A stretch of DNA of 64,000 nucleotides. Origin: Mycobacterium sp. KBS0706. Lineage in GTDB: Bacteria; Pseudomonadota; Alphaproteobacteria; DSM-16000; Inquilinaceae. Made by a program: the position numbers and the translations under genes. The notes beneath the pieces were generated by a model, which had not been told where the DNA came from, did not search any database, and saw only the letters and a program-made list of their open reading frames with translations. The stretch covers positions 1-64,000 of the forward strand of contig NZ_VCCH02000022.1 of assembly GCF_005938675.2 (NCBI RefSeq). The letters are read 5' to 3'. This document shows, in pieces, positions 7,581-64,000 of this stretch (the stretch's first letter is position 1; each line of letters begins with the position of its first letter).

Positions 7581-7684
7581 TGTTGCAACGGTCCTTCTTG
7601 GTCGACCTTATCTTCCCCCGCGCCCCCGAGCTGGCTTCGGGCCCGGGCGACGACGCCGTATCCCGGGCAGGAGGCGGCCTGGGG

Positions 7685-7713: not shown

Positions 7714-7763
7714 TTCGCTAGAACCACCCAGCGACGCAGCACCGCGGACCAGCCGAGCCAATC

Positions 7764-8213: not shown

Positions 8214-8298
8214 CGCCGCCACGCCTGGGGCGCGGTTGGCCATTCCCGCTCCCTTCCGCCCGCCCTATGGTGCCGGCGCTGCAACAGAGGCCCGCCGC

Positions 8299-10211: not shown

Positions 10212-10260
10212 GATCTCGTCATTGCCTCAACCGCATTTCTCGACAGAAGGAGTTTTTCCG

Positions 10261-10692: not shown

Positions 10693-10802
10693 CGTCGTCG
10701 CGGCGGACGCAGAACGGGAGGCGGCATGTCGGATCGCCGCCTCCCCGACCGTCCTTGGATCGATCCCGGCGTGCGAGACGCCGCCATCGACAGGAGATCG
10801 AG

Positions 10803-11468: not shown

Positions 11469-11500
11469 GGCTGGGATCGATAGGTGCCCAGCGCAATCAA

Positions 11501-11640
11501 ATTGCCTCTCCCGCCTGGCGGGAGAGGCCGGGCGTCCGCAGGACGACCGGGTGAGAGCTGGTCCCAGCCTCGACAAAATCCCCTCACCCGGAGCCGCTCC
11601 GCGTCTCCGACCTCTCCCGCAAGCGGGAGAGGCAAAAACT
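11501..11640. repeat. Intergenic inverted-repeat element (CCTCTCCCGC type)
   Basis: About 140 bp with two hairpins: GCCTCTCCCGCC paired with GGCGGGAGAGGC (11504-11528) and CCTCTCCCGC paired with GCGGGAGAGG (11611-11632). Between them GGGTGAGAG and CCCTCACCC can also pair, giving a cruciform-like nested structure. It lies between the DHFR-like gene and gfa, which converge on it, so it can end transcription from both sides. Confidence 0.7.
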
Positions 11641-11686
11641 CACTGCCGTGGTCAGATCGGGATGATCCGATCCGGCTCAGCCAGCG

Positions 11687-12256
11687 CTAAGCCGGCAAAG
11701 CCCCGGAGCGCTTGGCGGTCCAGGTCGCGACGTAGTCCATCAGACCTGGCGACAGGCAGTCATAGGGCGGCAGCCCCAGCTCCGTCAGCCGGGCGCGGAC
11801 GCCGTCCATGCGGCTGGGATCGACGCCCGATTCGATGATCGACGAGACGAAAGCGGCGAAGGTCGGCGCGGCATAGCCGGCGTTGTCGAACCGCTCCGGA
11901 TGGATGAAGGACAGGCCCTTGAACGGATGGTCGCGCTCGACCGGGCCGTACAGGTGCACGCCGCATTGCTTGCAGGCATGCCGCTGGATCAGGGCGCTCG
12001 AATCGACCACCGCCAGCTTGTCGCCGTTCTCCAGCACCGTCACCTTGTCGCTCGGCACCACGGCGACGACCGAGAAGGCCGTGCCTTTCGGCTTCCAGCA
12101 CTTGGTGCAGCCGCAGGCATGGTTGTGGGCGACGTCGCCCTCGATGCGCACCTTGACGGGACGATCGGTGCACAGACAGGTCAGCGTGCCTCCCTGGAAG
12201 CTGCCGGACCCTTGGCGCACGCCGCCGTCGACGACCGGGTGTATGGACTCGCTCAT
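11687..12256 (-). CDS. gfa: S-(hydroxymethyl)glutathione synthase
   Basis: A 189-residue zinc protein of the Gfa family, which speeds the adduct formation of formaldehyde with glutathione, first step of GSH-dependent formaldehyde detoxification. Cys27/Cys29 (TCLCTD), Cys48/Cys50/Cys53 (HACGCTKCW) and Cys95/Cys98 (CKQCG) are the structural and catalytic zinc ligands. The whole length, including [18 protein letters not shown] and the C-terminal AKRSGAL, follows Paracoccus Gfa as I remember it. No adhC/frmA formaldehyde dehydrogenase gene is in the window. Divergent from the aldo/keto reductase gene. Confidence 0.93.
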
Positions 12257-12394
12257 CGCGTTTCTCCCTTTAGGTTCGTTGACCCGGATGGTCGTTTCCG
12301 GCGGAAGTGTCGGCCATGTGCGGCGGAATCTCTATTGGACCCTCGGACGAGAAATGGTGCCAAGATGGGCCATCAGCCCAGCCCGAGGAGCATC

Positions 12395-13333
12395 ATGTTC
12401 GATCCCGTTGAGCGCCGCCCGGTCGGCCGCACCACGCTGCGCGTGTCCCGCCTGGGCATCGGCGGCGGCAGCCTGTTCAGCTCGATCGGCGATGCCGCCG
12501 TGGCCGCGCTGGTGGACCATTGCTGGGACCGCGGACTGCGCCATTTCGATACCGCCGCCCTCTATGCCGCCGGGGTCAGCGAGACGCGCTTCGGCAATGC
12601 GCTGGCGGACCGGCCGCGCGGCGAGCATGTACTGTCGACCAAGGCCGGCCGCACCAATGAGGACGGCCAGAATCTTTTCGACTACAGCCGCGACGGCATC
12701 CTGCGATCGGTCGAGCGCAGCCTGGCCAAGCTGAAGCGCGACCGGCTGGACATCGTCTTCATCCACGACGTCACCCCCGACCTGCACGGCGACGCCTATG
12801 AGGCCCGATTCGCCGAGGCGATGGACGGCGCCTATCCGGCGCTGGCGGAGCTGCGCGACCGGGGCGTGGTCGGCGCCATCGGCGTCGGCGTCGGCAACTG
12901 GCAGGTGTGCCAGCGCTTCGCCGAGGCCGGCGACTTCGACTGCATGATGCTGGCCGGCGGCTACACCCTGCTGAAGCAGGATTCGGTGCCGTTCCTGGAC
13001 GATTGCGTGAAGCGCGGCATCTCGGTGCTGGTGGCGGCGCCGTTCAACACCGGCATCCTGGCCACCGGCGCAATCGAGGGCGCCCGCTACCACTACAAGC
13101 CGGCGACGCCCGAGGTGCTGGAACAGACCCGGCGGATCGAGTCGGTGTGCCGCCGCCACGACGTACCGCTGCCGGCGGCGGCGCTGCAGTTCCCGCTGCG
13201 CCACCCGGCCGTCGTCAGCGTCGTCGTCGGCCACCAGTCAGCCGAGGAGGTCGACCGCAACCTGGCCCTGCTGCGGCGCGACATCCCGGAGGCGCTGTGG
13301 GCTGACCTCGCGGCGGAGAGGGTGGCGGCGTAG
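12395..13333 (+). CDS. Aldo/keto reductase
   Basis: A 312-residue NAD(P)H-dependent oxidoreductase with a TIM barrel. Catalytic residues appear as Asp/Tyr in FDTAALYAAG, Lys in LSTKAG and His in FIHDV. The sequence around RFGNAL, GVGNWQVC and APFNTGILATG points to the L-fucose/D-arabinose 1-dehydrogenase (D-threo-aldose dehydrogenase) branch. The ATG at 12395 lies behind GAGGAGC and gives the usual N-terminus (RRPVGRTTLRVSRLGIGGG). A possible link to the FAHD/SDR pair at 40400-42035, which may end the same sugar pathway, is inference. Confidence 0.88.
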   Translation: MFDPVERRPVGRTTLRVSRLGIGGGSLFSSIGDAAVAALVDHCWDRGLRHFDTAALYAAGVSETRFGNALADRPRGEHVLSTKAGRTNEDGQNLFDYSRDGILRSVERSLAKLKRDRLDIVFIHDVTPDLHGDAYEARFAEAMDGAYPALAELRDRGVVGAIGVGVGNWQVCQRFAEAGDFDCMMLAGGYTLLKQDSVPFLDDCVKRGISVLVAAPFNTGILATGAIEGARYHYKPATPEVLEQTRRIESVCRRHDVPLPAAALQFPLRHPAVVSVVVGHQSAEEVDRNLALLRRDIPEALWADLAAERVAA

Positions 13334-13338
13334 GTCCG

Positions 13339-14184
13339 CTACGCCGCGGTGTGCTCCGTGATCGCGGCCAGGTAGGTGTCCCAGTCCGCCGGATGCAGCT
13401 CGTGGCCGCCGCCTTCGATCCGCACCAGCCGGGCGCCCGGCACGATGGCGGCCAGGGCGGCGCCGTGATCGACCGGGAAGATCGGGTCGGCCGTGCCGTG
13501 AATGACCAGCAGCGGCGGCCGGAGCTCGCCCAGCCGACCCCGCCACCGGTCGCCACCCTTCAGCATGAAGTGGTTGGTGGCGCTGGCGAAGCTGCGGGCG
13601 CGGTCGACATCGGTCTCGATCAGCCGGCGGGCCGCCGCCGAATCATGCGGATGGGCGGTGCCGGCGATGGCGCGGGCGTCGCGGCACATGAAGTCGATCA
13701 CCTGCGCCCGGTCGGTCCAGTCGACCGATTCGCCGGTCGCGGCATGCTCCATATAGGCCGCGGTGGTCCCGGGCAGATGCGAGGTGTCGGTGCCGACCGG
13801 CGAGGTGCTGATCGCGGTCAGCGAGGCCACCCGGTCCGGATGCGCCAGCGCCGCGAGCTGCGCGATCATGCCGCCGAGCGACATGCCGACGAGATGGGCG
13901 CGGCCCAGCCCGTGGCCGTCGAGCACGCGGATCGCGTCATCCGCCATGTCGTCGAAGCCGTAGGCCGCCTCGCCGGGCGGATAGGCAGTCGACCGGCCGG
14001 TGTCGCGGTTGTCGTAGCGGATCACATGGCGGCCTTGCCCGGCCAGGCGGCGGCAGAGTGCCTCGGGCCACCACAGCATCGAGGCCATGGCGCCCATGAT
14101 CAGCAGCACCGGCGGGTGCGCCGGGTCGCCGAAGGCCTCGGTCGCGATCTCGACGCCGCCGGCGCTGATCGTATTCTCGGTCAT
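13339..14184 (-). CDS. Alpha/beta hydrolase
   Basis: A 281-residue soluble alpha/beta-hydrolase. The nucleophile elbow is GMSLGG, the oxyanion region is LLIMGAMASMLWWP, the acid residue is likely in HGTADPIFPVDHG and the catalytic His in GGGHELHPADW. The D-N-R-D-T-G-R-S segment places it with bacterial esterases and lactonases of the 3-oxoadipate enol-lactonase/AknH-like group. Substrate is unknown. The ATG at 14184 was chosen over a longer open frame because the protein fold starts there and GGGGA precedes it. It converges with the aldo/keto reductase gene. Confidence 0.85.
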   Translation of the reverse strand: MTENTISAGGVEIATEAFGDPAHPPVLLIMGAMASMLWWPEALCRRLAGQGRHVIRYDNRDTGRSTAYPPGEAAYGFDDMADDAIRVLDGHGLGRAHLVGMSLGGMIAQLAALAHPDRVASLTAISTSPVGTDTSHLPGTTAAYMEHAATGESVDWTDRAQVIDFMCRDARAIAGTAHPHDSAAARRLIETDVDRARSFASATNHFMLKGGDRWRGRLGELRPPLLVIHGTADPIFPVDHGAALAAIVPGARLVRIEGGGHELHPADWDTYLAAITEHTAA

Positions 14185-14204
14185 TTCGTTTCCCCGTTTG
14201 AACC

Positions 14205-15407
14205 CTAGACCCCCGCCAATTCCCGCAGCCGGCCGAGGCTTTCGTCGCGGCCGGGGCGCAGGCCCCGGGCGATCCACCAGCGCTCGACCTCGGCCAAGGC
14301 GCGGCCGACGGCGGGACCGGTGACGCCGAGGGCGACCACGTCGCGGCCGCGCACCGGCAGGGTCGGCACCGGCTCCTTTTCCAGCGCCGCCAAGGCGCGC
14401 TTGAAGCTCCAGCGCGTCGGCGCCGCGGCCCAGGCTAGGCGCAGCCGGTCGCGGCCGCCGGCCCGGCCGTGCCGGTACAACAGGAGCCGCACCCCGATTT
14501 CATCCGGCGCCTTGTCGAGCGTGCTGTCCTGCAGCCCGAGCAGCCTGTCGCGCTCGTCATTCGACAGCTTCAGCCGGGCCGCGACCGCCGCCGCGTCGCC
14601 ACGCAGCAGTGCCGCCAGCCGCAACACCGGATCGGAGCCCGGCGCGACCTGCACCAGCCCCTGCAGCCGGGCGATGTCGCCATCCTCGCCGATCACGTGC
14701 CGGGCGATGCCGGATTCGACCATCGCCCGCCACACCGGCACCGGGTCTGGCGCGGCCAGCAGCTTCAGCAGCTCGGCCCGCACCCGCTCGCCAGACAGCC
14801 GGTCGAGGCTGCCGGACGCGGCGGCGCAGGCGGCCAGCGCCGGCGGGTCGAGCTCGCCGCTGCCGAAATGGGCGTGGAAGCGGAAGAAGCGCAGGATGCG
14901 CAAGCCGTCCTCGGCGATGCGCTGCGCCGGGTCGCCGACGAAGCGGACCCGGCCGGCGAGCGCGTCCGCCACGCCGCCGAAATAATCATGCACCACCCCT
15001 TCGAAATCGGCCGACAGCGCATTCATGGTGAAGTCGCGCCGAGACGCATCGGCCCGCCAGTCGGCGGTGAACTCGACGATGGCGTGGCGGCCGTCGGTCT
15101 CGACATCGATCCTGAGCGTCGTGACCTCGAAGCTCTTGCCGCCGGAGCGGGCGGTGACCGTGCCGTGCTGCAACCCGGTCGGGATCACGCCGAGCCCGGC
15201 GTTGCGCAGCGCCACCATCACCGCCTCCGGCCGCAGCGGCGTGGCGATGTCGACATCCGCGGCGTCGCGGCCGAGCAGCGCGTTGCGGACGCAGCCGCCG
15301 ACGAAGCGCGGATCGAAGCCGGGGATCGACAGGGCGTCGATCACCGCCCGGGCGGCGGGGTCGGTGGCCCAGCCGGGCAGCGGCGACAGGCGGTGCGGTG
15401 TCGTCAT
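14205..15407 (-). CDS. cca: CCA tRNA nucleotidyltransferase
   Basis: A 400-residue class II nucleotidyltransferase that adds or repairs the 3' CCA end of tRNA. The catalytic site is FVGGCVRNALLGRDAADVDIAT (G-G-x-VR and DxD), followed by the RRDFTMNAL motif and a RNA-binding helical body with ERVRAELLKLL. Its ATG overlaps the stop of the NUDIX gene by four bases, so it is the last gene of the three-gene operon DUF1285-NUDIX-cca, a conserved arrangement in alphaproteobacteria. The GC-rich C-terminal part is more divergent but uninterrupted. Confidence 0.95.
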   Translation of the reverse strand: MTTPHRLSPLPGWATDPAARAVIDALSIPGFDPRFVGGCVRNALLGRDAADVDIATPLRPEAVMVALRNAGLGVIPTGLQHGTVTARSGGKSFEVTTLRIDVETDGRHAIVEFTADWRADASRRDFTMNALSADFEGVVHDYFGGVADALAGRVRFVGDPAQRIAEDGLRILRFFRFHAHFGSGELDPPALAACAAASGSLDRLSGERVRAELLKLLAAPDPVPVWRAMVESGIARHVIGEDGDIARLQGLVQVAPGSDPVLRLAALLRGDAAAVAARLKLSNDERDRLLGLQDSTLDKAPDEIGVRLLLYRHGRAGGRDRLRLAWAAAPTRWSFKRALAALEKEPVPTLPVRGRDVVALGVTGPAVGRALAEVERWWIARGLRPGRDESLGRLRELAGV

Positions 15408-16021
15408 TCGGCCGTGGTTCCGTGCAGCACGTCGCGGAGATTCCGCAGGATGCCCGCGGTCACACCCCAGACATAGCGGTCGCGATAGGGGAAGGCATAA
15501 TATTGCCGCTCCACCCCCTGCACGGTGATGCGGTGCAGCTTCGGGTTGTTGGGGGCCAGGATGAAGGCCAGCGGCACCTCGAAGATCTCGGCCACCTCGA
15601 ACGGATCGGGCGCGGTCTCCAAGGGCGGCGTCAGCAGGCCGACGAAGGGCTGGATCTCGAAGCCGGTGCGGCTGACATAAGTGTCGAGCCGGCCGACGAT
15701 CTCCACCTTCCCGCGCGGCAGGCCAATCTCCTCCTCAGTCTCGCGCAACGCCGCCGACAGCGGGTCCGGGTCGCCCACATCGACGCCGCCGCCGGGGAAG
15801 GCGATCTGGCCGGCATGGGCATTGAGGTGCGGCGTGCGCAGGGTCAGCAGGATGGTGTCGCCCTCCGGCCGCCGGACGATCGGCACCAGCACCGCCGCCG
15901 GACGCAGGCTCGCCAGCGGCTTCAGGTCCGGATTCAGGTCGTGGTCGCCGCGGGAGAGGCGCGGCCGATAGCGCCGCAGCCGCTCCAGATCGGCCGCGCC
16001 CGGGGGCGGTTCGGTGGTCAC
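15404..16021 (-). CDS. CoA pyrophosphatase (NUDIX hydrolase)
   Basis: A 205-residue NUDIX hydrolase of the NudL/YeaB (CoA diphosphatase) type. The NUDIX box is the GGGVDVGDPDPLSAAL segment followed by RETEEEIGL; the family signature LLTLRT...HAGQIAFPGGGVD just before it is the CoA-pyrophosphatase mark. It probably splits CoA or acyl-CoA into phosphopantetheine and 3',5'-ADP. Overlaps both neighbours by 4 bp (stop of DUF1285 gene, start of cca), so the three genes are co-translated. Confidence 0.88.
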   Translation of the reverse strand: MTTEPPPGAADLERLRRYRPRLSRGDHDLNPDLKPLASLRPAAVLVPIVRRPEGDTILLTLRTPHLNAHAGQIAFPGGGVDVGDPDPLSAALRETEEEIGLPRGKVEIVGRLDTYVSRTGFEIQPFVGLLTPPLETAPDPFEVAEIFEVPLAFILAPNNPKLHRITVQGVERQYYAFPYRDRYVWGVTAGILRNLRDVLHGTTAE

Positions 16022-16590
16022 GCCTGGTCCAGCGGGAAGAATGTCCGGTGGCTCCAGACCCCTATCCGGCCGTCATGGCTGACGGCGATCTCGGCCAGCT
16101 CGTAGAACACCGGGCGCGACAGCAGCGCGTCGAGCCCCTCGGCGATCCGGATATAGGGCGACGGCTCGCCGGTGCCGGCGGCGAAGGTCACCCGGATCGG
16201 ATGCTCCGGCCCTGCCTCGCGCGCCGCGTCGAGATTGGTGCGGAAAGTCAGGACTTGGTCTTCGCCCGCCCCCGCCACCTCCACCGCCACGGCGACGAAG
16301 GGCGCGTCGTCGACCGTGATCCGCCCGCGCTCGGCCGGGGTGATCAGCCAGTAGTCGCCGGCGGCGTCGCGCCGCAGCACGGTGGCGAACAGCTTGACCA
16401 GGGGCAGGCGGCGGATCGGGCTGCCGTGATAGTACCAGGTGCCGTCGCGGCCGATGCGGATGTCATAGGCCTCGTCCGCCGCGCTCGGGCCGCGCCGGGC
16501 ACCGGCCAAAGCCGCATCCATGGCGCCTGCGTCAGACTGCGCCCGGGCCGATTGCGTTTTCTTCGACTCGCCGTCGCTCAATTCCGCCAT
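16018..16590 (-). CDS. DUF1285 domain-containing protein
   Basis: A 190-residue protein of the DUF1285 family, shown by [18 protein letters not shown], the [19 protein letters not shown] block and the closing [11 protein letters not shown]. No function is established; structural work on the family places it near PH-like/beta folds, as far as I recall. A poorly ordered N-terminus of about 35 residues precedes the domain. First gene of the operon with a CoA pyrophosphatase and cca, and divergent from moxR with only 45 bp between the starts, so both promoters must overlap there. Confidence 0.85.
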
Positions 16591-16635
16591 ACTCTTGCAA
16601 TAGATCCGTCAGTTCCCCGGCAGAGCGGCACGCCC

Positions 16636-17643
16636 ATGCAAACGACCGTCCCGACCGAGCTCGACACCCCGGCCACGCCCGGCGACATCGATGCGGCCGT
16701 GGAGCGGCTGGCCGCCGTGCGCAGCATGATCGGCCGGGTCATCTTCGGCCAGCAAGAGGTGATCGACCAGAGCCTCGTGACCATCCTGGCCGGCGGCCAT
16801 GTCCTGCTGGTCGGCCTGCCCGGCCTGGCCAAGACCCGGCTGGTCGAGACGCTCGGCACCGTGCTGGGCCTCGAGGAGCGGCGGGTGCAGTGCACGCCGG
16901 ACCTGATGCCGGCCGACATCCTCGGCTCCGAGGTGCTGGAGGAGAGCGAGACCGGCCGCCGCAGCTTCCGCTTCATTCCCGGCCCGGTGTTCAGCCAACT
17001 GCTGATGGCCGACGAGATCAACCGCGCCAGCCCGCGCACCCAGTCGGCGCTGCTGCAGGCGATGCAGGAGCACCGGGTGTCGATCGCCGGCCGCTACCTG
17101 CCGCTGCCGGAGCCGTTCCACGTCCTGGCCACGCAGAATCCGCTGGAGCAGGAAGGCACCTACCCCCTGCCCGAGGCGCAGCTGGACCGCTTCCTGATGC
17201 AGGTCGATGTCGGCTACCCTGACCTGGCGGCGGAGCGGCGGATGCTGCTGGCCACCACCGGCGTGCACGAGGCCCAGATCGAGGCGGTGATGAGCGCCGA
17301 GGCCCTGCAGCGGACCCAACGCCTGGTGCGCCGGCTGCCGGTCGGCGAGACGGTGCTGGAGGCGATCCTGTCGCTGGTCCGCGCCGCCCGGCCCGATTCG
17401 ACCGACCTGCCCGAGGTGCAGCGCATGGTCGGCTGGGGCCCCGGCCCGCGCGCCAGCCAGTCGCTGATGCTGGCCTGCCGCGCCCGTGCCCTCTTGACCG
17501 GCCGGCCGTCGCCCTCGGTCGACGACGTCGCCGCCCTCGCCCGCCCGATCCTGCAGCACCGCATGGCCCTGACCTTCGCCGCGCGCGCCGATGGCGCCAC
17601 CATCGCCGACGTCGTCGAGCGGCTGGTCGCGCGCCTGGGCTGA
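16636..17643 (+). CDS. MoxR family AAA+ ATPase
   Basis: A 335-residue MoxR ATPase. Walker A is GLPGLAKT (residues 60-67), Walker B MADEINR (about residue 120), and [20 protein letters not shown] is the family sensor-1 signature. MoxR proteins work as chaperones with VWA/DUF58 partners in membrane protein or cofactor maturation. The ATG at 16636 gives the normal family N-terminus. It opens an operon with DUF58, DUF4159 and a large membrane protein, all on the plus strand with gaps of 7 bp or overlaps. Confidence 0.93.
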
Positions 17644-17650
17644 GGCCGAG

Positions 17651-18565
17651 GTGGCGGACGGTTCATCCCCCCTGACCGGCGCCGGGCGGCGCAAGGCGGC
17701 CGATGCGCTGGCGGCGACGCTGCCGCCGCTGCTGATCGCCGCCGACCGCGTCGCTTCGACCGTGGCCCAGGGCGTGCACGGCCGCCGCCGGGTCGGAGTC
17801 GGCGAGAGCTTCTGGCAGTTCCGCCGCTATCAGGCCGGCGAGCCGATCGGCCGGATCGACTGGCGCCAGTCCGGCAAGTCCGAAGGGCTGTTCCAGCGCG
17901 AGACCGAATGGGCCGCGGTGCAGACCGCCTGGCTGTGGCGCGACGCCTCGCCGTCGATGGATTACCGCTCCGACCGCTCGCTGCCGACCAAGCGCGATCG
18001 CGCCGAGGTGCTGCTGCTGGCCCTGGCCTCGCTGTTGAACCGCGCCGGCGAGCGGGTGGCGCTGATCGGCGGCGACACCCCGCCGGCGACCGGCCGCGCC
18101 AGCCTGCTGCGCCTGGCCGCAGCGCTGGACCGGGGCACCCTGGACGATGCCAGCAAGGCGGTGCCATGGGAGCTGCGGGTGCCGCGCCACGCCGCCATGG
18201 TGCTGCTGGGCGACTGCCTGGCCCCGCTCGACGAGTTCGGCGCCTCGGTCGCCGCCTATGCCGCCCGCGGCGTGCGCGGCCACATCCTGCAGGTGCTCGA
18301 CCCGGCCGAGGCGACGCTGCCCTTCGAGGGCCGCATCCGCTTCGAGGGCATCGAGGAGGTCGAATCGGCACTGATCCCGCGGGTGCGGTCGGTGCGCGAC
18401 GCCTATCGCGAGCGCCTGGCCGAGCACCAGGACGGGCTGGCGGCGATCGCCCGCCGCGCCGGCTGGAGCTTCGCCGTGCACCGCACCGACAGATCGGCCG
18501 AGGCGGCGCTGCTGAGTCTGTGGGGCGTGATGTCCGGGGCCGCGACCGGCAGGGCCAGATGGTGA
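17651..18565 (+). CDS. DUF58 domain-containing protein
   Basis: A 304-residue protein with the DUF58 core (FRRYQAGEPIGRIDWRQSGK) and a VWA-like C-terminal half with a partial MIDAS (WRDASPSMDYRS). DUF58 proteins are the usual partners of MoxR ATPases. The likely start is GTG at 17651, seven bases after the moxR stop; a longer frame begins inside moxR but adds no conserved sequence. It overlaps the start of the next gene by 7 bp. Confidence 0.88.
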   Translation: MADGSSPLTGAGRRKAADALAATLPPLLIAADRVASTVAQGVHGRRRVGVGESFWQFRRYQAGEPIGRIDWRQSGKSEGLFQRETEWAAVQTAWLWRDASPSMDYRSDRSLPTKRDRAEVLLLALASLLNRAGERVALIGGDTPPATGRASLLRLAAALDRGTLDDASKAVPWELRVPRHAAMVLLGDCLAPLDEFGASVAAYAARGVRGHILQVLDPAEATLPFEGRIRFEGIEEVESALIPRVRSVRDAYRERLAEHQDGLAAIARRAGWSFAVHRTDRSAEAALLSLWGVMSGAATGRARW

Positions 18566-21318
18566 CGCTCGGCGGCCTCGTCTTCCTGGCCCCCGCCATC
18601 CTGGCGGCGCTGATCCTGCTGCCGGTGATCTACTGGCTGCTGCGGGTCACGCCGCCGGCGCCGCGGCGCCTGAGCTTCCCGGCGATCCGCCTGCTGCTGG
18701 GCCTGCAGGCGCAGGAGGAGACGCCGGAGCGGATGCCCTGGTGGCTGCTGGTGCTGCGCCTGGCCCTGGCGGCACTGATTATCATCGCCCTGGCGCATCC
18801 GGTGCTGAACCCCGGCTCCGCACTGCCCGGCAGCGGCCCGGTGCTGCTGGTGGTCGACAATGGCTGGGCCGCCGGCAAGGCCTGGCCGCAGCGGCAGGAG
18901 GCCCTGCGCACCGCCGTCGACAAGGCCGAGCGCGCCGGCCGCGACGTGGTGCTGCTGGCCACCGCGCCGACCGCCCCGGGCGAGCCGGTGGCGGCGAGCC
19001 GCCTGCTGCGCCCGAGCGAGGCCCGCGGCCTGATCGATAATATGGCGCCCAGCCCCTGGCCGACCGACCGGGCGGCGGCGCTGAAGGCGGCCGACGCGCT
19101 GCGCCTGCCCGGATCGGTCCATGTCGTCTGGGCCAGCGACGGCATCACCGCCGAGAAAGAGGCGGACGGGGTGCGCGACTTCGCCGCCCGGCTGCAGCGC
19201 TTCGGCAGTCTGGAGGTGCTGACGCCGCAGGCCTTCGACCTGGCGCATCTGGTCGGCACGCCGCAAGTGGTCGACACCGCCCTCACCGTCCCGGTGAAGC
19301 GTGCCGCCGCCGTCGGCGACGTGCCGCTGGTGCTGCGCGCCGCGGCCGAGGACGGCCGCCCGCTGGCCCGCACCGAGGTCCGCTTCCCCGCCGGTCAGCG
19401 CCAGGCCGAGGCCCGGTTCGAGCTGCCCTCGACCGCACGCAACGCCATCGCCGCGGTATCGATCGAGGGCGAGACCACGGCCGGCGCCACGGTGCTGGTC
19501 GACGAGCGCTGGCGCCGCCGGCCGGTCGGCCTGGCCGCGCCGCAGGACACCGCCCGGGCCCAGCCGCTGCTGACCGAGAGCTACTATCTGCAGCGGGCGC
19601 TGGAGCCCTTCGCCGAGATCCGCCGCGGCAGCGTCGCCGACCTCTTGGGCGGCACCCAGCCGACCGACAGGCTGGCCGCGCTGCTGCTGCCGGACGGCAC
19701 CCTGTCCTCCGAGGCCGACCGCCAGGCGGCCGATCGCTGGATGGAAGGCGGCGGCGCCCTGATCCGCTTCGCCGGGCCGATCCTGGCGGCCAACCCGGAC
19801 CCGCTGGTGCCGGTGCCGCTGCGCTTCGGCGACCGCACCCTGTCCGGCGCGATGTCCTGGACCGAGCCGATGTCGCTGGCGCCGTTCGATGCCACAAGCC
19901 CGTTCCAGGGCCTGACCATCCCGGCGGATGTGCGCATCCAGCGCCAGGTGCTGGCCGACCCGTCGCCCGACCTGGCCGACAAGACCTGGGCCCGGCTGAC
20001 CGACGGCACGCCGATCGTCACCGCCGAGAAGCGCGGCCGCGGCTGGCTGATCCTGATCCACACCACCGCCGGGCCCGGCTGGTCGAACCTCGCCTTCTCC
20101 GGCCTGTTCGTCGACATGCTGCGCCGCGTCGTGGCGCTGGGCAGCGGCGTCGGCGGCGACAGCGGCCAGGCCAGCCTGGCGCCGGTCAAGCTGCTGGACG
20201 GGCTCGGCCGGCTGGTGCCGCCGCCGCCGCTGGCCCTGCCGATCGCCGGCCCGGCCTTCGCCAGCACCGTGCCGGGGCCGGAGCACCCGCCCGGCTTCTA
20301 CGGCACCGAGGACAACCGCCGTGCCCTCAACCTCGGCTCGGCCGTGACCAGCCTGGAGCCGATCCCGAGCCTGCCGCCCGGCGTGTCGGTCGCGGGCTAC
20401 GAGGCCCCGGCCGAGGTCGACCTGCGGCCCTGGGTCTTCGCCCTGGCCATGACCCTGCTGATCCTGGACGGGCTGATCGCCCTGTTCATGCGCGGCCTGC
20501 TGACCCCGCCGCGGCGCGCCACCACGGCGGCGCTGCTGGTGGCCGGCGCCGTCGCCGCGTCGCTGCTGTCGCCCGCACCGGCGCGGGCGCAGGACGACAG
20601 CCGCATCATCGCCATGGCCAACCATGTCCGCCTCGCCTATGTCGAGACCGGGTCGCAGGATGTCGACGCGGTCAGCCAGGCCGGGCTGGAAGGCCTGGCC
20701 CAGGTGCTGCGCGACCGCACCTCGGTCAATGCCGAAGGCGCCGTCGGCATCGATGTCGAGAGCGACGAGCTGGCCTTCTTCCCCCTGCTGTACTGGCCGA
20801 TGACGCCGGAGCAGCCGGCCCTGTCCGACGCCGCGATCGGCAAGCTGAACGCCTTCCTGCGCACCGGCGGCACCATCTTCTTCGACACCCGCGACCAGGC
20901 GACGGGCAGCAGCGGCGGGGCGCTGGCCGGGCCGGGCGCCGAGAAGCTGCGCGAGCTGACCCAGGGCCTGGACGTGCCGCCGCTGACGCCGGTGCCGCCG
21001 GACCATATCCTGACCCGCGCCTTCTACCTGATGCAGGACTTCCCCGGCCGCTACGCCGGCGGCGACCTGTGGGTGGAGACCGCCGACGCCACGGTCAATG
21101 ACGGCGTCTCGACCATCATCATCGGCGCCAATGACTGGGCCGGGGCCTGGGCGACCGGGCCGGGCGGCGCGCCGATGCTGCCGGTGGTGCCGGGCGGCGA
21201 GCGCCAGCGCGAGATGGCCTATCGCTTCGGCGTCAACCTGGTGATGTACGCCCTGACCGGCAACTACAAGTCGGACCAGGTGCATGTGCCGGCCATCCTG
21301 GAACGGCTGGGGCAGTGA
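18559..21318 (+). CDS. DUF4159 domain-containing membrane protein with BatA-like N-terminus
   Basis: A 919-residue protein. Two N-terminal helices (about residues 5-27 and 62-82) flank a BatA/aerotolerance-regulator style segment, then a VWA-like periplasmic or cytosolic domain (LLVVDNGWAAG), further helices near residues 630-690, and a DUF4159 domain from about residue 678 (SRIIAMANHVRLAYVETG to the end), which resembles class I glutamine-amidotransferase folds. The ATG at 18559 overlaps the DUF58 gene. With MoxR, DUF58 and the next gene it forms the alphaproteobacterial version of the Bat-like membrane operon; its exact role is not established. Confidence 0.85.
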   Translation: MVTLGGLVFLAPAILAALILLPVIYWLLRVTPPAPRRLSFPAIRLLLGLQAQEETPERMPWWLLVLRLALAALIIIALAHPVLNPGSALPGSGPVLLVVDNGWAAGKAWPQRQEALRTAVDKAERAGRDVVLLATAPTAPGEPVAASRLLRPSEARGLIDNMAPSPWPTDRAAALKAADALRLPGSVHVVWASDGITAEKEADGVRDFAARLQRFGSLEVLTPQAFDLAHLVGTPQVVDTALTVPVKRAAAVGDVPLVLRAAAEDGRPLARTEVRFPAGQRQAEARFELPSTARNAIAAVSIEGETTAGATVLVDERWRRRPVGLAAPQDTARAQPLLTESYYLQRALEPFAEIRRGSVADLLGGTQPTDRLAALLLPDGTLSSEADRQAADRWMEGGGALIRFAGPILAANPDPLVPVPLRFGDRTLSGAMSWTEPMSLAPFDATSPFQGLTIPADVRIQRQVLADPSPDLADKTWARLTDGTPIVTAEKRGRGWLILIHTTAGPGWSNLAFSGLFVDMLRRVVALGSGVGGDSGQASLAPVKLLDGLGRLVPPPPLALPIAGPAFASTVPGPEHPPGFYGTEDNRRALNLGSAVTSLEPIPSLPPGVSVAGYEAPAEVDLRPWVFALAMTLLILDGLIALFMRGLLTPPRRATTAALLVAGAVAASLLSPAPARAQDDSRIIAMANHVRLAYVETGSQDVDAVSQAGLEGLAQVLRDRTSVNAEGAVGIDVESDELAFFPLLYWPMTPEQPALSDAAIGKLNAFLRTGGTIFFDTRDQATGSSGGALAGPGAEKLRELTQGLDVPPLTPVPPDHILTRAFYLMQDFPGRYAGGDLWVETADATVNDGVSTIIIGANDWAGAWATGPGGAPMLPVVPGGERQREMAYRFGVNLVMYALTGNYKSDQVHVPAILERLGQ

Positions 21319-58590: not shown

Positions 58591-58796
58591 GGGCCGTGCC
58601 CTTCCTGCGTCGGCGCGAACGCCCCCTCACCCTCCCGTTGCCGACGCAGCGGGCCCCTCCCTCTCCCCGATACGGCGGGGTCGAGGCAATTTCCTCTTTC
58701 GTGTCAATGACTTATGGTCCAGCATTCCGCGGCATTAGCATTCCAAAACCACATGGCCCCTATGCTCGATAGCACGAATCGCGGCATCGTCGGGGC

Positions 58797-59396
58797 ATGA
58801 TCAAGAACCATGGCACGCTCGTCTGGGCGCAAGAAGGGGTGGCCGTGATCCGGGCGGCGCTGCGGACAACGCCGCAGATGGCGGCCCAACTCGCTCTCAC
58901 AGCGGCAGCGGGCGCGATCTACGAGCGGACCTACCGCATGCGGATCGATGGTGACCGCCCGGTCACGGCCGCAGCCGACGACGCGGGCCCGGCGGTGGTT
59001 ATTGTGCCGCCGATCGCGGCGTATACCCATGTCGGCGATGGGGAGTTCAAGCCTCTTCTCGACCATATTGCATGCCGCGCCCTGACCGTCGCTGATGTAT
59101 CGAGCCAACGGTTCCCGCTGGGCACGCCGAACCTGCCGCACATGCTCGACTGCCCGCAACTATTGGCGGCCTTGAAGTTGTGGCGCGGACTGCTGTCGCT
59201 GCGCGAGGTCGAGGTGATGGAATGGCTGATCGCCAAAGGTCTGGCCGAGCCCTGGCCTGAGGCGGGGGACGCCGTGGCGGCGGCTATCGACGAGTTCAGC
59301 GTGAAGCAGAACCCGGCCGAACGCGCTTGGCGGGCAGCACGCAAGCTCGAACCCTCGATCATGGCAGGCAAGCGCGGACGGGATTTGACCCGCTAA
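58797..59396 (+). CDS. Hypothetical protein at the edge of the phage-type region
   Basis: A 199-residue protein of unknown family. The N-terminal IKNHGTLVWAQEGVAV stretch and a Ala-rich helix follow, then the PNLPHMLDCPQLLAALK block and a helical, basic end (RAARKLEPSIMAGKRGRDLTR). No membrane span. Codon use is less GC-biased than in the flanking housekeeping genes. The ATG at 58797 has only a weak ribosome site, and it ends in a terminator at 59484. It could be a cargo or edge gene of the element. Confidence 0.55.
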   Translation: MIKNHGTLVWAQEGVAVIRAALRTTPQMAAQLALTAAAGAIYERTYRMRIDGDRPVTAAADDAGPAVVIVPPIAAYTHVGDGEFKPLLDHIACRALTVADVSSQRFPLGTPNLPHMLDCPQLLAALKLWRGLLSLREVEVMEWLIAKGLAEPWPEAGDAVAAAIDEFSVKQNPAERAWRAARKLEPSIMAGKRGRDLTR

Positions 59397-59573: not shown

Positions 59574-59816
59574 ATGAGCCGTTACCTGTCGATGCGCTAC
59601 ATCGCCGAGGACATCGGCGTGAGCGTCAAGAGCGTGACCCGGATCATCGCCCGCAAGGAACTGCCGGTCGCCGTGTTCGGCCGCAACGTCCGGGTGCCCG
59701 AGGATGCCTATCTGGCCTACAAGGCGCGGCTGACCCACCCGGCGAAGGCGGACGAGCCGCAGCGCCCGGTCATGCAGTACCGCCGCATCCCGCGCGCACC
59801 CAAGGCGGGTGTGTAG
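59574..59816 (+). CDS. Excisionase-like helix-turn-helix protein
   Basis: An 80-residue DNA-binding protein. MSRYLSMRYIAEDIGVSVKSVTRIIARKEL is a MerR/Xis-type winged helix-turn-helix (partly quoted: YIAEDIGVSVKSVTRII), followed by VFGRNVRVPEDAYLAYK, typical of phage excisionases and AlpA-like activators. AGGAGG lies nine bases before the ATG. First gene of the packed cluster, so it probably regulates it or serves in excision. Confidence 0.8.
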   Translation: MSRYLSMRYIAEDIGVSVKSVTRIIARKELPVAVFGRNVRVPEDAYLAYKARLTHPAKADEPQRPVMQYRRIPRAPKAGV

Positions 59817-59817
59817 C

Positions 59818-60198
59818 ATGGACCCGCTTCGTATCGACATCCAGCGCCGCCCGGTCCGCGCCGGCCGGCTGCTGCCGCCGCTGCATTCGGCTTGGGGTTT
59901 CAAGGACCGCGACCTGTGCAGCCTCTGCCGCCGGTTGGTCGCGGCCCGCTGCCCGGACGGGCCTGCCTACACGTGGGATGGCAAGGGCTACGGCATGCGG
60001 ATCGACTCGATTCACCACTATGCCGAGTGGACGGTCGAGGAAGACGGCATCGGGGGGTATCCCCTGTACCGCCGTTACAGGCCGTCTAACCCCGGGGGCT
60101 GCCCCGAGGGCGGCCGTTTTGGGTCCGCCGGCACCCAGGACACCCCCAGCCCCGTTCCGGCCTTCCAGGGGCCGATTTCCCAGGCCAAGGGGGGCTAA
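59818..60198 (+). CDS. Hypothetical phage protein with a cysteine cluster
   Basis: A 126-residue protein starting 2 bp after the preceding stop. It has CSLCRRLVAARC, which could bind zinc, and a Pro/Gly-rich, disordered end. No family recognised. Position between the HTH gene and the primase suggests a role in replication control, by inference. Confidence 0.65.
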   Translation: MDPLRIDIQRRPVRAGRLLPPLHSAWGFKDRDLCSLCRRLVAARCPDGPAYTWDGKGYGMRIDSIHHYAEWTVEEDGIGGYPLYRRYRPSNPGGCPEGGRFGSAGTQDTPSPVPAFQGPISQAKGG

Positions 60199-60201
60199 GC
60201 G

Positions 60202-61350
60202 ATGACGAACAGCAAGGGCCCCCGCCCCGGTGGCAGCGGAGCGGAGGCCGGGACCGAAGATCAGGGCAATATCCACGGGGACGGCAAGGACGATATCGCC
60301 GCAGCGCTGGCGCCGTCAAATCGCCTTCGCGTTCATGGCGAGCATCTGCGCCGGATGAAGGATCGCGAAAACGAGCGGCGGCGGGTCGAGCGGCTGGCCG
60401 ACCGGGACTGGGCCGAGGTGCGGCGGGCCAGGAAGCCGATCCGGCAGGTGGCCGAAGAATGCTCGCTGCCCGACGTGATCGCGGCGGCCGGCGTTGCCTT
60501 GAAGCGGGACGGGAACGAATGGCTGGCCGGCTGTCCGTTTCACGAAGACGACAACCCCAGCTTCCGCGTCTATCCGGCCGGGTCGGGCGGCAAGGCGCAT
60601 TACCACTGTTTCGGCTGTCAGGCGCACGGCGACGCGGTGGATTTCGTGCGAACCTTCTACGGCATCGATGTCCGCCGGGCGGTGGCGATGCTCGACGGGC
60701 GGCAGCACACCCCGGCGCCGCGGGTCGAGGGCGAGCGCAGGACGAGTGACGATGACAAGGTGGCGCGCCGCATGGCCGTCGCCTTCCGCTTGTGGTCAGA
60801 GGCCGTGCCGATCCTGGGCACCCCGGCATCGGTCTATCTGACCTTCCAGCGCGGCATCCCGGTCGAGGCGCTGGAAGGCCTTGATCATGCCGTGAGGTGG
60901 CACCCGGTCGAGCGGATGATCCTGGCGCTGATGCGCGATCCGAAGTCGGGGCAGAAGCTGGGGGTGCATCGCACCTTCATCTCGGAAGCCGGCGCGATCG
61001 AGGTTCGGCCGTTCAAGGGCGGCGGCGAGGGCAAGCGCGGGATGCTCGGCCCGGCCGGGGTGGTGCGGCTGTCGCACGGCTCGACCGTGACCATGGGGCT
61101 CGGCATCTGCGAAGGCCTGGAAGACGGCCTCGCGATCCTGGCCAGCGGCTGGGCCCCCGTCTGGTCCTGCTTGTCGGCCGGGATGATCGAACGCTTTCCG
61201 CTGTTGGACGGCATCGAGCATCTGACCGTCTTCGCCGACCCCGATCCGATCGGCGAGCCGGCGGCGCAGGCCTGTCTGCGGCGCTGGCATGATGCCGGGC
61301 GCGGAACCACCTTTGCGGTGTGGGATGGGGGCGCCGATGGGCCGCGGTGA
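60202..61350 (+). CDS. Phage/satellite DNA primase (CHC2 zinc finger and Toprim)
   Basis: A 382-residue primase-like protein. A zinc finger CHC2 domain lies near residues 100-145 (CPFHEDDNPSF and HYHCFGCQAHGDAVDFV) and a Toprim fold follows, with GICEGLEDGLAI (catalytic Glu) and VFADPDPIG (DxD) near residues 300-350. It lacks a C-terminal helicase domain, which is supplied by the next gene. It should make primers for element replication. The ATG at 60202 follows the small gene by 3 bp; its end overlaps the helicase start. Confidence 0.85.
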   Translation: MTNSKGPRPGGSGAEAGTEDQGNIHGDGKDDIAAALAPSNRLRVHGEHLRRMKDRENERRRVERLADRDWAEVRRARKPIRQVAEECSLPDVIAAAGVALKRDGNEWLAGCPFHEDDNPSFRVYPAGSGGKAHYHCFGCQAHGDAVDFVRTFYGIDVRRAVAMLDGRQHTPAPRVEGERRTSDDDKVARRMAVAFRLWSEAVPILGTPASVYLTFQRGIPVEALEGLDHAVRWHPVERMILALMRDPKSGQKLGVHRTFISEAGAIEVRPFKGGGEGKRGMLGPAGVVRLSHGSTVTMGLGICEGLEDGLAILASGWAPVWSCLSAGMIERFPLLDGIEHLTVFADPDPIGEPAAQACLRRWHDAGRGTTFAVWDGGADGPR

Positions 61351-62587
61351 TCCCAATGACTGGTTCCGGCACGATCCGGAAGGGCCGAGGAAGGGCGCCG
61401 ATGAGGCCTTCGCCCGCCAGCGCCAGGACCAGCGCCGGGCCGATGCGCGGCTGAAGTGTCGGCTCAACGCCAAGGGGCTGGCGGGAATGGACATGATCGC
61501 GTCGTCGCTTGGGTTGGTCCGCGGCCTGCTGGGCGCAGGCGGGCTGTCCTGCGTCTACGGCCCGCCGGCCAGCCTGAAATCCTTCCTGGTGCTGGATCTG
61601 GCCTTCGCCATCGCCCGCGGCAGGCCGTGGCGCGGCCTGCCGGTGAAGCAGGGCTTGGTGCTCTATCTCGCAGCCGAGGGCGGGGCCGGGGTGTGCAACC
61701 GGATCACGGCCTATCGCCGCGGTCATGACGGGGAAGCCTGCCCGGTCACCGATGAAACCACCTTCGTCACCGTGACTGAGCCGGTTGACCTGGTGCACGG
61801 GGCCGAGGGAATGGACCTGGTGCTGGAAGCCTGCGAGGTGGCGGCGGCGCGGTACGGGCAGAAGGTGGCACTGGTGGTGATCGACACCCTGGCCCGCTGC
61901 TTCGGTGGTGAGAGCGACAGCGACACCGGGCACATGAACGCCTTCGTCCAGTCGATCGGCGCTATCGCCCGGCGGACCGGCGCTCATGTCCTGATCGTTC
62001 ATCACAGCGGCAAGGTGGTGGAACGCGGCGCCCGCGGGGCCAACGCGCTGCCGGCGGCGATTGATACCGAAATCGAGGTGTCGCGTAACGGGCGCGAGTT
62101 GCGGGCCACGGCGCGGGTGCGCAAGAACCGCGACGGGGTTGACGGGCGCAGCTTCCCGTTCCGGGTCGAGGTGATCGAGTTGGGCCAGGACAGCGACGGC
62201 GTTGAGGTGTCGTCCTGTGTGGTCCGGCACCCTGACCGGGACGAGCCCGAGCGGGCCGAAGCGCCGGAACCGGCCAAGAAGACGATGACGCCGGACATGG
62301 TGCTGGCGCTGCGCAGCCTGCATGAGGCGCTGTCGCGTCAGGGCCAGACGCCCGCCGAATTGAAGCTGCCGCCCAGCCGGGTGCCGCCGTCAATCCATCT
62401 GGTGGTCAAGCGCGAGGCCTGGAAGCAGGAAGCCTACTCGACCGGCTTCCGGGCCGATGACGATAAGCCCGACACCCGCGACAAGGCTTTCCGGCGGGCG
62501 GAAAAGGCGCTGCATCTCGGCGCCTGGATCGCGGGTTGGACCGGCTTCGTCTGGATCGTCAAGCCGGCCGATGAGGCCACCGGATGA
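61337..62587 (+). CDS. AAA/RecA-fold replicative helicase, RepA type
   Basis: A 416-residue protein of the AAA_25/RepA family. Walker A is GPPASLKS (about residue 75), Walker B LVVIDTLAR, and the HHSGK motif near residue 220 is the family sensor. With the primase it forms the usual two-protein primase-helicase of satellites and plasmids. Start ATG at 61337, preceded by GGGGGCGCCG, overlaps the primase stop by 14 bp; an earlier ATG at 61325 is also possible. Confidence 0.85.
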   Translation: MGRGDPNDWFRHDPEGPRKGADEAFARQRQDQRRADARLKCRLNAKGLAGMDMIASSLGLVRGLLGAGGLSCVYGPPASLKSFLVLDLAFAIARGRPWRGLPVKQGLVLYLAAEGGAGVCNRITAYRRGHDGEACPVTDETTFVTVTEPVDLVHGAEGMDLVLEACEVAAARYGQKVALVVIDTLARCFGGESDSDTGHMNAFVQSIGAIARRTGAHVLIVHHSGKVVERGARGANALPAAIDTEIEVSRNGRELRATARVRKNRDGVDGRSFPFRVEVIELGQDSDGVEVSSCVVRHPDRDEPERAEAPEPAKKTMTPDMVLALRSLHEALSRQGQTPAELKLPPSRVPPSIHLVVKREAWKQEAYSTGFRADDDKPDTRDKAFRRAEKALHLGAWIAGWTGFVWIVKPADEATG

Positions 62588-62856
62588 CCGGACAAACCGC
62601 TCTTTGTCCGGACTGTCCGAGCCTCAAACAGCCGGACGGACAATTCCACGGGCTGTACTACGGCCGGCCCCCCGGACACCGGACACACCCTAAAGGGTGG
62701 TGTCCGGTCTGTCCGTGTGTCCGACTTGTACAGACCGTGCTTTTCCGCTGTCCGGCCTGGAAGGGAAGGAAGAAGGGAAGAACGAAACGGCGAACCTTCT
62801 TCTTCAAGGCCAAACAGCGACTTGGCCGAGAGGCAATGAATGAGGAAGCGAGATGA
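62584..62856 (+). CDS. Small Cys-Pro-rich protein
   Basis: A 90-residue ORF with an ATGA overlap to the helicase stop and another ATGA overlap to the next gene, so translation coupling is likely. It has LCPDCPSL, WCPVCPCVR and RCPAW, which could bind zinc, and a basic tail (KGRKKGRTKRR). Much of its DNA coincides with the TGTCCG motif cluster, so either the protein or the DNA sites may shape it; expression is unproven. Confidence 0.5.
   Translation: MTGQTALCPDCPSLKQPDGQFHGLYYGRPPGHRTHPKGWCPVCPCVRLVQTVLFRCPAWKGRKKGRTKRRTFFFKAKQRLGREAMNEEAR
62588..62755. repeat. Cluster of TGTCCG/CGGACA motifs, iteron-like (candidate replication origin)
   Basis: Ten copies of the hexamer TGTCCG or its complement within 168 bp: minus at 62588-62594, 62636-62642, 62672-62678, 62679-62685 and plus at 62605, 62614, 62701, 62710, 62718, 62749. 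Six are exact CCGGACA/TGTCCGG. Two tandem copies at 62672-62685 and a near-perfect hairpin at 62679-62707 (CCGGACACACCC, TAAA, GGGTGGTGTCCGG) lie in the centre. Such arrays beside primase-helicase genes act as origins in satellites and plasmids. Confidence 0.6.
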
Positions 62857-63140
62857 CAACACCGACCCCCTGGACTGCCGCCATCCTGGCCGGCAAGTTT
62901 GCGCCCGTCGTCGCACGGACCGCGGCCAATCTCGTGATGTTTCCGCCCGAGTACCAGCCGGACGCGATCGAGCAAAGCCGGCTGGTGCTGCGGCGGGCCG
63001 TGCTCGATGTCGGGCTGCTGCTGGCCCGGCATAACACGCCGCTGCCGGGGGCGATGGTCGATGAGGCCGCCGACCTAGTGGCGGATGCCATGCTGGCCGA
63101 ACTGGCGCGGCTCATGGCCGCCGGCAGCGGCACCGCTTGA
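62853..63140 (+). CDS. Hypothetical small helical protein
   Basis: A 95-residue protein that starts in the ATGA overlap with the preceding gene; GAGGAAGCGAG is its ribosome site. It is rich in Ala and Leu and likely all helical (AILAGKFAPVVARTAANLVM, DEAADLVADAMLAELARLM). No family recognised; may be a phage-specific accessory protein. Confidence 0.65.
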   Translation: MTTPTPWTAAILAGKFAPVVARTAANLVMFPPEYQPDAIEQSRLVLRRAVLDVGLLLARHNTPLPGAMVDEAADLVADAMLAELARLMAAGSGTA

Positions 63141-63160
63141 AGGTATCAGGGTACCGTGAC

Positions 63161-64000
63161 ATGATTCGGTCGGCGGCCCAGCGTCGCCACCCTGGCCGGC
63201 GTCGCGGCCCTCGTCCCGTCCGCGGCGCCGGCTCTACCGAAGAGGCGCCGATGCTTGACGACCTGCCCCGCTCGTCCCACCCCAGCGACATCGCGGCGTG
63301 GCATGCGCACCGCCGCCGCAATGTCGGCCGTGACTTCCTCGCCGCCGCCCGCGGGCTCGCGATCGGCGCCGGCTCGCCGCAGGCCGCCGCCGCCCATGCC
63401 GGCCGGGCCGGGTCGCCGCGGGCCCAGGCCGCGCTCAAGGCCGCTGTTCCGGCCGCTGGGCTCGCCAACTCGGCCGCCCTTCGCCAGCTTGCGGTGGATT
63501 ACATTCCGACCTTGGCGCCGCGTAGCGTCTTCGCCCGGCTGCTCGGCGACAACCTCATGATTCGCGTCCCGCTCGATAGCCTGCCGGTGACGGCGACCGC
63601 TATCGCCACCGCGGCGACCACGCCCGAAGGCAGGGGCAAGCCGGTCAAGGCCATGTCCTTCGCGGCGCCGACCATCCCGCCGCAGAAGGTGGCCTGCATC
63701 ACCGTCAGCACCGAGGAACTTTGGCGCAGCCTCGCGCCCGGCGGCCCGGCCTTCCTGACGGCGACGCTTGAGGCCGGGATCGCGGTCGGGCTCGACACCC
63801 TGCTGTTTGCGGCCGTGCTCGGCGGGCCCCCCACCTTCGCCTGGAATCCGGCGGCGCCGCTCGCGGTGCTGCAACAGGCGCTCGCATCTATCGCCAGCCC
63901 GACCGGCCTAACCCGCCCCGTCGCGGCCTGTGACCAGCCCACGGCGATGATCCTGGCCACGACTACGGACACGGCGGGCGCACGGCTGTTCCCCAATGTC
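63161..64000 (+). CDS. HK97-type major capsid protein (partial, runs off the window)
   Basis: The reading frame runs to base 64000 without stop. VPLDSLPVTATAI, ATTPEGRGKPVKAMSFAAPTI and PQKVACITVSTEELWR match the HK97-fold capsid family, especially the PxGxxKP...K-x-x-A pattern of the E-loop and A-domain. About 280 residues are visible. In-frame starts are ATG at 63161, giving an Arg-rich lead (MIRSAAQRRHPGRRRG), and ATG at 63251 with AGAGG before it; the second is the safer one. No prohead protease or portal gene precedes it. Confidence 0.75.
   Translation, partial: MIRSAAQRRHPGRRRGPRPVRGAGSTEEAPMLDDLPRSSHPSDIAAWHAHRRRNVGRDFLAAARGLAIGAGSPQAAAAHAGRAGSPRAQAALKAAVPAAGLANSAALRQLAVDYIPTLAPRSVFARLLGDNLMIRVPLDSLPVTATAIATAATTPEGRGKPVKAMSFAAPTIPPQKVACITVSTEELWRSLAPGGPAFLTATLEAGIAVGLDTLLFAAVLGGPPTFAWNPAAPLAVLQQALASIASPTGLTRPVAACDQPTAMILATTTDTAGARLFPNV

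Follow-up and report, generated by a model that had tools for sequence, protein, structure and literature searches.

An integrated 10.3-kb element with a capsid protein gene in an alphaproteobacterial genome, read as a phage satellite

Genes and borders of the element

The window, by which we mean the whole 64,000-base stretch of DNA that was analysed, consists of bases 1-64000 of the 102,321-base contig NZ_VCCH02000022.1 of Mycobacterium sp. KBS0706, a genome whose GTDB lineage is alphaproteobacterial (Inquilinaceae). Near its right edge lies an element that we call E1. Because the contig runs on past the window, the right part of E1 can be read as well; positions above 64,000 follow the contig, whose numbering continues that of the window. 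Judged against empty sites in congeners, E1 spans approximately 58,664-69,001 (10.3 kb), lies entirely on one contig and is a complete, real mobile element. Directly seen are an integrase, replication genes, a homologue of phage major capsid proteins (MCPs), a small terminase and, in relatives, the empty site. The reading of E1 as an alphaproteobacterial satellite is supported by its empty-site borders, its integrase, replication genes of its own, the finding of no tail gene and the recurrence of the same plan elsewhere at 10.3 +/- 0.6 kb. The host class has further support: GcrA, a regulator typical of Alphaproteobacteria, was found in all 7 genomes of the window's class that were searched, the E1 genome among them, and in 0 of 3 from other classes of its phylum, while 14 controls gave matches in Caulobacter and, unexpectedly, in Sulfolobus. 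For the flanking acyl-CoA dehydrogenase, the ten best plasmid or chromid matches (69-70% identity) all belong to Azospirillum.

The left part of E1 is read on the forward strand and opens with a 199-residue open reading frame (ORF) that has no family match (58797..59396), followed by an 80-residue AlpA/excisionase-like helix-turn-helix (HTH) regulator (59574..59816; phrog_66, E 1.7e-6), whose AlpA-like match is weak (TIGR01764 8e-5 and HTH_17 0.003, each below its cut-off). Next come a 129-residue protein of no family (59809..60198), a DnaG-type primase (60202..61350) with a CHC2 zinc finger/ribbon (1.3e-20), DUF7146 and a Toprim domain (Toprim_3), and a RepA-like AAA_25 helicase (61289..62587; AAA_25 2.8e-36) that is 39% identical over 274 residues to the helicase of another satellite, L091, described below. 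The interval between helicase and capsid gene holds a doubtful 90-residue gene (62584..62856), which is an ORF call alone, and a 95-residue protein of no clear family (62853..63140; phrog_34872, E 0.013). The gene for an HK97-type, protease-less MCP homologue then occupies 63137..64318, of which the window holds 63137..64000. An earlier note, made from the letters of the window, had described this order of HTH gene, small protein, primase, helicase, two small genes and capsid, which is confirmed, and had remarked that no terminase, portal or protease lies among these genes, which gene calls and family scans bear out. Beyond the window the forward strand continues with a 133-residue protein carrying a CBM_5/12-like tail (64315-64716), and a P27 terminase small subunit (TerS; 65047-65604; Terminase_4 4.1e-8, phrog_83 7e-15). 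The reverse strand carries two cargo genes and a tyrosine integrase (67523-68809; phrog_1 1.6e-32), directly past which lie the host acyl-CoA dehydrogenase and further host genes. The first cargo gene (65713-66576) encodes a 287-residue membrane-like protein with no family above cut-off and falls in a 1-kb stretch of 50.7% G+C, against 61-72% around it, that looks recently acquired; the second (66783-67391) encodes a 202-residue cargo protein. PADLOC gave no match on this cargo.

The attachment site of E1 is specific and has an empty form in three of five congeners (G389, G388 and G387), in which the gap between the flanking thioesterase and acyl-CoA dehydrogenase genes measures 190, 192 and 105 bases, respectively, and both flanking proteins are 92-95% identical to the window's copies. 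Aligned with the empty sites of G389 and G388, the sequence stays homologous on the left up to 58,668-58,670 and is so again on the right from 68,986-68,995; the G387 alignment ends sooner on either side, such that the empty state is visible there but the exact insertion point is not. These positions coincide with two copies of the core TCCCCGA, one at 58664..58670, inside a REP-like intergenic palindrome and at the junction in the empty-site alignments, and one at 68995-69001, in a palindromic intergenic repeat. A 7-base repeat by itself would mean nothing, and the borders therefore rest on the empty sites; they move the start of E1 to about 58,664 from the 59,574 given before. In a fourth congener (G386) the contigs break off at the site, and in the fifth (G385) the 9.6 kb between the flanking genes was considered as an element and rejected, since by eye it holds unrelated, ordinary chromosomal genes.

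No large terminase (TerL), portal, protease, connector, tail gene or HNH gene was found in E1 by family scans, in which every listed ORF except the 90-residue one was compared with at least one family library, or by a set of 33 markers, proteins of phages whose MCP is of this or a related type. In E1 the matches of these markers were limited to the MCP and, for a single further phage protein, to its C-terminal 53 residues; the last 53 residues of the CBM-tailed protein are 53% identical to the end of the phage protein YP_009909169.1, annotated 'portal protein'. All three control regions were matched by TerL, portal and protease markers, the TerL of G262 by its own protein alone. The earlier note had held that its idea would be refuted by a complete complement of tail, portal and terminase genes, arranged as in a normal prophage, beyond position 64000. 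No such set turned up: extension to the right reached the integrase and the attachment site and, of the genes sought, the small terminase. With large terminase, portal, protease, connector and tail gene all unfound, E1 is neither an intact prophage nor a capsid-forming phage-inducible chromosomal island (cf-PICI).

Recurrence of the plan and the capsid protein lineage

The same plan recurs at eleven loci in nine genomes, namely E1, a second element in its own genome (E2) and nine loci of eight other genomes. E2 (L007) lies on another contig and is 10.7 kb long, with an integrase, a DUF927 protein, an MCP and a CBM-tailed protein, bounded by a direct repeat of 15 bases shared with the tRNA-Ser 3' end. 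It shares with E1 the MCP alone by tblastn (E 0.01), and no DNA similarity at E 0.001. The genome record states a contamination of 9.8%; the E1 contig is corroborated by the flanks in congeners, a check that does not extend to the E2 contig.

Among 385 genomes of the class to which the window belongs, an MCP profile search gave six places in five genomes: E1, E2, E3 (G294), E4 (G203, on one contig), E5 (G263) and an ordinary prophage (G262). When the profile search was widened to 398 genomes of the phylum, 15 of them held a total of 18 places: E1, E2, six new elements (L086, L087, L090, L091, L092 and L095), one complex, four phages (L088, L089, L093 and L096) and five unclassified places. The phage L096 is cut by a contig end and shows TerL and a fused protease, with no portal within reach; the unclassified places are L094, L097 and L098, where the markers matched nothing beyond part of the MCP, or nothing at all, together with G487 and the second place of G573. 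Since these profiles were built from satellite MCPs and so favour satellites, the place counts are not frequencies. The six new elements went through the same marker test and, for part of their proteins, a Pfam scan; the weakest member is L090, on a short contig without integrase. No portal, TerL or protease marker matched anywhere in E1-E5.

Replication genes vary between the loci: a CHC2/Toprim primase with AAA_25 helicase in E1, DUF927 in E2, Prim-Pol in E3, an O-like initiator in E4, AAA_25 in L086 and L091, and a RepB-like primase with DUF5906 in L092. A candidate small terminase is placed by position alone in E4 (phrog_83, E 0.0076) and in E5 (no match). Length varies little. Eight elements have an integrase and, at the far end, a tRNA (E2-E5, L086, L087, L092 and L095), and in each an exact direct repeat of 15-50 bases joins the 3' part of the tRNA with a stretch upstream of the integrase; in shuffle controls (200 per case) the longest match was 11-14 bases. 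Together with E1, and leaving L090, L091 and L085 out of the figures, these nine measure 9,288-11,002 bases (mean 10,257, standard deviation 628), against 42-69 kb for the phage records above 40 kb that carry this MCP (20 of 54 records); records of 5-24 kb (H25, H26, H27 and H30) were left out of the reading. Such narrow lengths suggest a packaging limit.

Several candidates were set aside. L085 (G707) is excluded from satellite counts and lengths because one of its integrases lies beyond the repeat-bounded interval; at 7059-19088, around the MCP, lie a 46-base repeat of tRNA-Thr and two integrase-like matches, perhaps belonging to a pair of tandem elements. Ancylobacter pLGM (L013, 9114-19310), a 10-kb region with an MCP, a separate S78 protease, gp10 and a tape-measure-like protein and with no TerL or portal annotated, could be a remnant or an intermediate, and is counted as a probable prophage remnant rather than a sister element. 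Single-sequence matches in G252, G064 and G275 (E 5e-4 to 7e-4) were dropped, as none was recovered at the profile-search cut-off; the G064 contig holds ordinary genes. The weak family matches in G405 and G400 adjoin TerL markers and are counted as phage. Two scans of genome contigs and one of viral contigs returned no relative, and a second viral-contig scan returned five contigs reading as ordinary phages, among which L017 alone was marker-tested.

Some of these loci carry further genes. A tape-measure-like protein of 685-829 residues follows the MCP in L091 (10585-12882), L090 (5811-8300) and L095 (10933-12990), recognised by DNA identity in the first, by Tape_meas_lam_C (2.5e-9) in the second and by N-terminal likeness only in the third; if a satellite supplies shell and tape measure itself, it might govern tail length too. 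L091, from a genome of the same phylum as E1, sits, by eye, in a dusB-fis-like neighbourhood, which together with the host class speaks for Pseudomonadota as that phylum. Candidate-defence-like cargo is present in E2 (7526-8278 and 6113-6772) and at L042 (12072-12902), the matches being PDC-M24B (2.3e-9), RiboL-PSP-HEPN (Pfam, 6.9e-14) and the PDC-S45 protease (6.1e-21). In E4 (L050) a 590-residue protein with no PHROGs match follows the MCP module (6401-8173) and is possibly a fibre or cargo.

The E1 MCP aligns to the C-terminal half only of the 626-position family phrog_617 ('major head protein'; E 6e-10), and a profile of five satellite MCPs matches the solved MCP 9d9w (E 3e-22). Purine-rich motifs (GAAGAGG / GAGGAG) lie just upstream of an internal ATG in both E1 and E2, for which reason the true start is probably the ATG at 63,251 (355 residues) and not the TTG at 63,137; this would put 83 residues ahead of the shell core. 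The protein is 38% identical to the E2 MCP and just 25-26% identical to phage MCPs. In an alignment of 31 rows a fused S78-type protease domain is present in 11 of the 19 phage or prophage MCPs, against none of the 11 classified satellite MCPs and none in L085. The satellite MCPs have 60-121 residues ahead of the conserved shell core, compared with 176-178 in Mcat5 and Acinetobacter. Among closer relatives in phages or plasmid prophages, the six that could be read on both sides have TerL within about 2.2 kb upstream and a portal within about 1.8 kb downstream of the MCP; the protease is fused to the MCP in JLK-2012, RHph_X2_26, PAJU2 and Arsenophonus, and adjoins it in Acinetobacter and in Mcat5 (where the protease bears the annotation 'coat protein'). 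In the more distant PY54 and RcapNL the portal lies upstream, and the MCP is preceded by another capsid gene or a peptidase gene; a Bradyrhizobium plasmid record shows a TerL-MCP pair and stops soon after.

In a tree of 20 MCPs, E1 and E2 are sisters (support 100/99); the five satellites require two changes, and their union in a single clade is neither established nor rejected (approximately unbiased test, p 0.14). The earlier note had proposed a comparison with satellites by clustering primase and capsid sequences. In a tree of 31 MCPs, E1, E2 and L087 form a clade (100/98), which E3 joins at 87/85, and the satellites overall require four changes, two of them forced by firm branches. The E4 MCP is placed among phage MCPs. 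The MCPs of the clade of E1, E2, L087 and E3 are intact over long branches. Several satellite branches are long and the E1 MCP has an unusual letter make-up, which makes the satellite positions unsure. The trees point to what is probably one satellite MCP lineage that includes E1, plus some separate recruitments.

Possible roles of the capsid protein

We consider it rather probable that E1 is a complete, integrated satellite of the phage-inducible chromosomal island (PICI) type whose MCP redirects the helper capsid to a small shell, much as the protein Ccm does, with TerS steering packaging. Infection by a helper would turn E1 on through the AlpA-like regulator, after which the element would be excised by its integrase and copied by its primase and helicase. 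Its MCP would co-assemble with the helper MCP around the helper portal to give a small shell, fitting about 10 kb and shutting out the helper genome; the helper would complete the particle with its protease, large terminase and tail, and TerS would direct packaging toward E1 DNA. This would amount to the Ccm strategy of SaPIbov5, carried out with a different MCP family.

Several observations weigh against this proposal. Induction, excision, a helper and a particle are predicted here from the genes of E1. The MCP is present in none of the five congeners, so that selection on this very gene is not measurable, and structure prediction on the 288 window-internal MCP residues gave a mean predicted local distance difference test score (pLDDT) of 34 and was not used. 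The short N-terminal region is not diagnostic alone, because it is short in PY54 (84 residues) and Ancylobacter (80) as well. The integrase and two cargo genes of E1 are convergent at its right end, unlike the situation in E2, E3, E4 and E5, in which the core from integrase to MCP is transcribed in one direction. No resident helper of the families searched, PF04860 portals and PF03354 terminases, is seen: HK97-type portals of PF04860 are found in neither E1's own genome nor G203 nor G263, and PF03354 in none of eight satellite-bearing genomes searched out of the nine (controls, 3 of 14 positive). These searches miss some phages, given that G294 has a PF04860 portal on another contig with no PF03354 match. 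Two Klebsiella phages that resemble the E1 TerS were rejected as a helper clue, the match being too weak (28% identity, E 1e-3). In L091, 782 bases of the tape-measure-like gene match tape-measure genes of E. coli prophages at 81% identity; these prophages are ordered TerL-portal-protease-MCP, and the match may point to the helper type of L091. Finally, in the Gram-negative PICI EcCICFT073, deletion of an MCP homologue left both transfer and interference with phage lambda unchanged, according to the available text of PMC6092414; such an MCP gene therefore need not redirect capsids.

The same protein could instead make the whole shell, on a helper portal and with a helper protease, in contrast to the mixed shell of Ccm. 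By profile the MCP is a full-length shell protein, and in some relatives a CBM-tailed or tape-measure-like protein accompanies it, as though these elements provided more of their particle themselves. This is nonetheless unlikely in our estimation, because E1 encodes neither protease nor portal, an MCP only distantly similar to those of phages may not suit a helper portal, and Ccm by itself forms no capsid, as far as the available part of PMC8569155 describes it. That the MCP merely poisons helper head assembly, the element travelling in full-size helper heads, is a poor prospect by comparison with co-assembly. It finds a precedent in EcCICFT073, which is packaged in full-size capsids despite its MCP homologue (PMC6092414, in the portion drawn on here), but the deletion described above gave no relief of interference, and the narrow length range of the nine elements suggests a size limit.

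Prophage remnants are common, and E1 might be one of them, in which terminase, portal, protease and tail were deleted and integrase, replication genes and capsid were left by chance. The Ancylobacter plasmid provides one probable case with this very MCP family. Such a 'remnant' would have to recur, however, in different insertion sites and together with five or more types of replication gene, with matching ends and lengths of 9.3-11.0 kb; the MCPs are intact, those of E1, E2 and L087 make one clade, and the fused protease is distributed unevenly between phage and satellite rows as described above. We therefore regard chance decay as quite improbable. The earlier note had suggested a cf-PICI type of alphaproteobacterial satellite, of which the satellite part stands, on borders, integrase, replication genes and recurrence; the cf-PICI part, for which the compact layout and the presence of MCP and TerS would speak, is extremely improbable given that those two are the only genes found of the set in the cf-PICI description (PMC10690885, as far as its available text goes).

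More tentatively, and with the odds against so general a claim, E1 could belong to a broad class of approximately 10-kb 'shell-only' satellites in Pseudomonadota, built repeatedly by placing the protease-free shell domain of protease-fused MCPs behind a replication module. If true, these would fall between PICIs, which remodel the helper shell, and cf-PICIs, which build a whole head: the satellite would give the shell and, in some members, the tape measure and perhaps the tail length, and the helper would add portal, protease, motor and all else. Phage defence and gene transfer are both shaped by satellites, whose detection leans on sets of known markers. Where an MCP gene stands alone with an integrase and a primase, it is easily written off as prophage debris; because this arrangement is found repeatedly, within a narrow length range and with an MCP lineage of satellites, such 'debris' becomes recognisable as a class. 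The missing protease part, with an N-terminal region that is mostly shorter, would also allow a direct test of how size is chosen in HK97-type shells.

Comparison with known satellites

A closer analogy than the cf-PICIs is a PICI with a capsid protein homologue, such as SaPIbov5, PmCI172 or EcCICFT073. The integrase, AlpA-type regulator and primase/replication module that Gram-negative PICIs possess are all present in E1, and some of them also carry terS (PMC6092414, in its available part). E1 departs from their one-way transcription with the integrase at the left end, its own integrase being convergent and at the far end, and from their reported host range, given as Gammaproteobacteria only in the same part of that source. 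The layout of EcCICFT073 (integrase, HTH, primase, MCP and a head decoration or small capsid gene) is very like that of E1, and yet its MCP shows no relation to that of E1 in a profile comparison (hhalign probability 0.2%). PmCI172 also encodes an MCP homologue and has small capsids or heads (PMC6092414, same portion). The phages PAJU2, JLK-2012 and RHph_X2_26 share with E1 an MCP that is homologous across the shell domain, and differ in having TerL, a fused protease and a portal close to it. Similarly, the cf-PICIs resemble E1 as satellites with an MCP and TerS, and differ in encoding the head maturation protease, portal, head-tail connectors, both terminase subunits and an HNH endonuclease according to the available text of PMC10690885, of which protease, portal, connector, TerL and HNH gene were not found in E1.

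The closest functional parallel that we propose is Ccm of SaPIbov5. Ccm makes up the pentamers in a shell of mixed composition, and through it the capsid, prolate in phi12, becomes small and isometric (PMC8569155, in the part consulted). Both Ccm and the E1 MCP, at 355 residues from its probable start, are satellite-borne capsid protein homologues without a known protease, within what that part of the source covers. SaPIbov5 differs in its Firmicute host and phi12-type capsid protein; the E1 MCP belongs to a proteobacterial family that is often fused to a protease, and its redirection of capsids is only proposed here. Among the papers listed for satellites or PICIs in Alphaproteobacteria, or for satellites with capsid or tape-measure genes, no title or abstract, as far as displayed, described such a class, which is weak evidence of novelty as most subscription journals were not covered. 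Satellites with an MCP homologue are thus already known in SaPIbov5, EcCICFT073 and PmCI172, and what E1 adds to them is a distinct MCP lineage and an alphaproteobacterial host.

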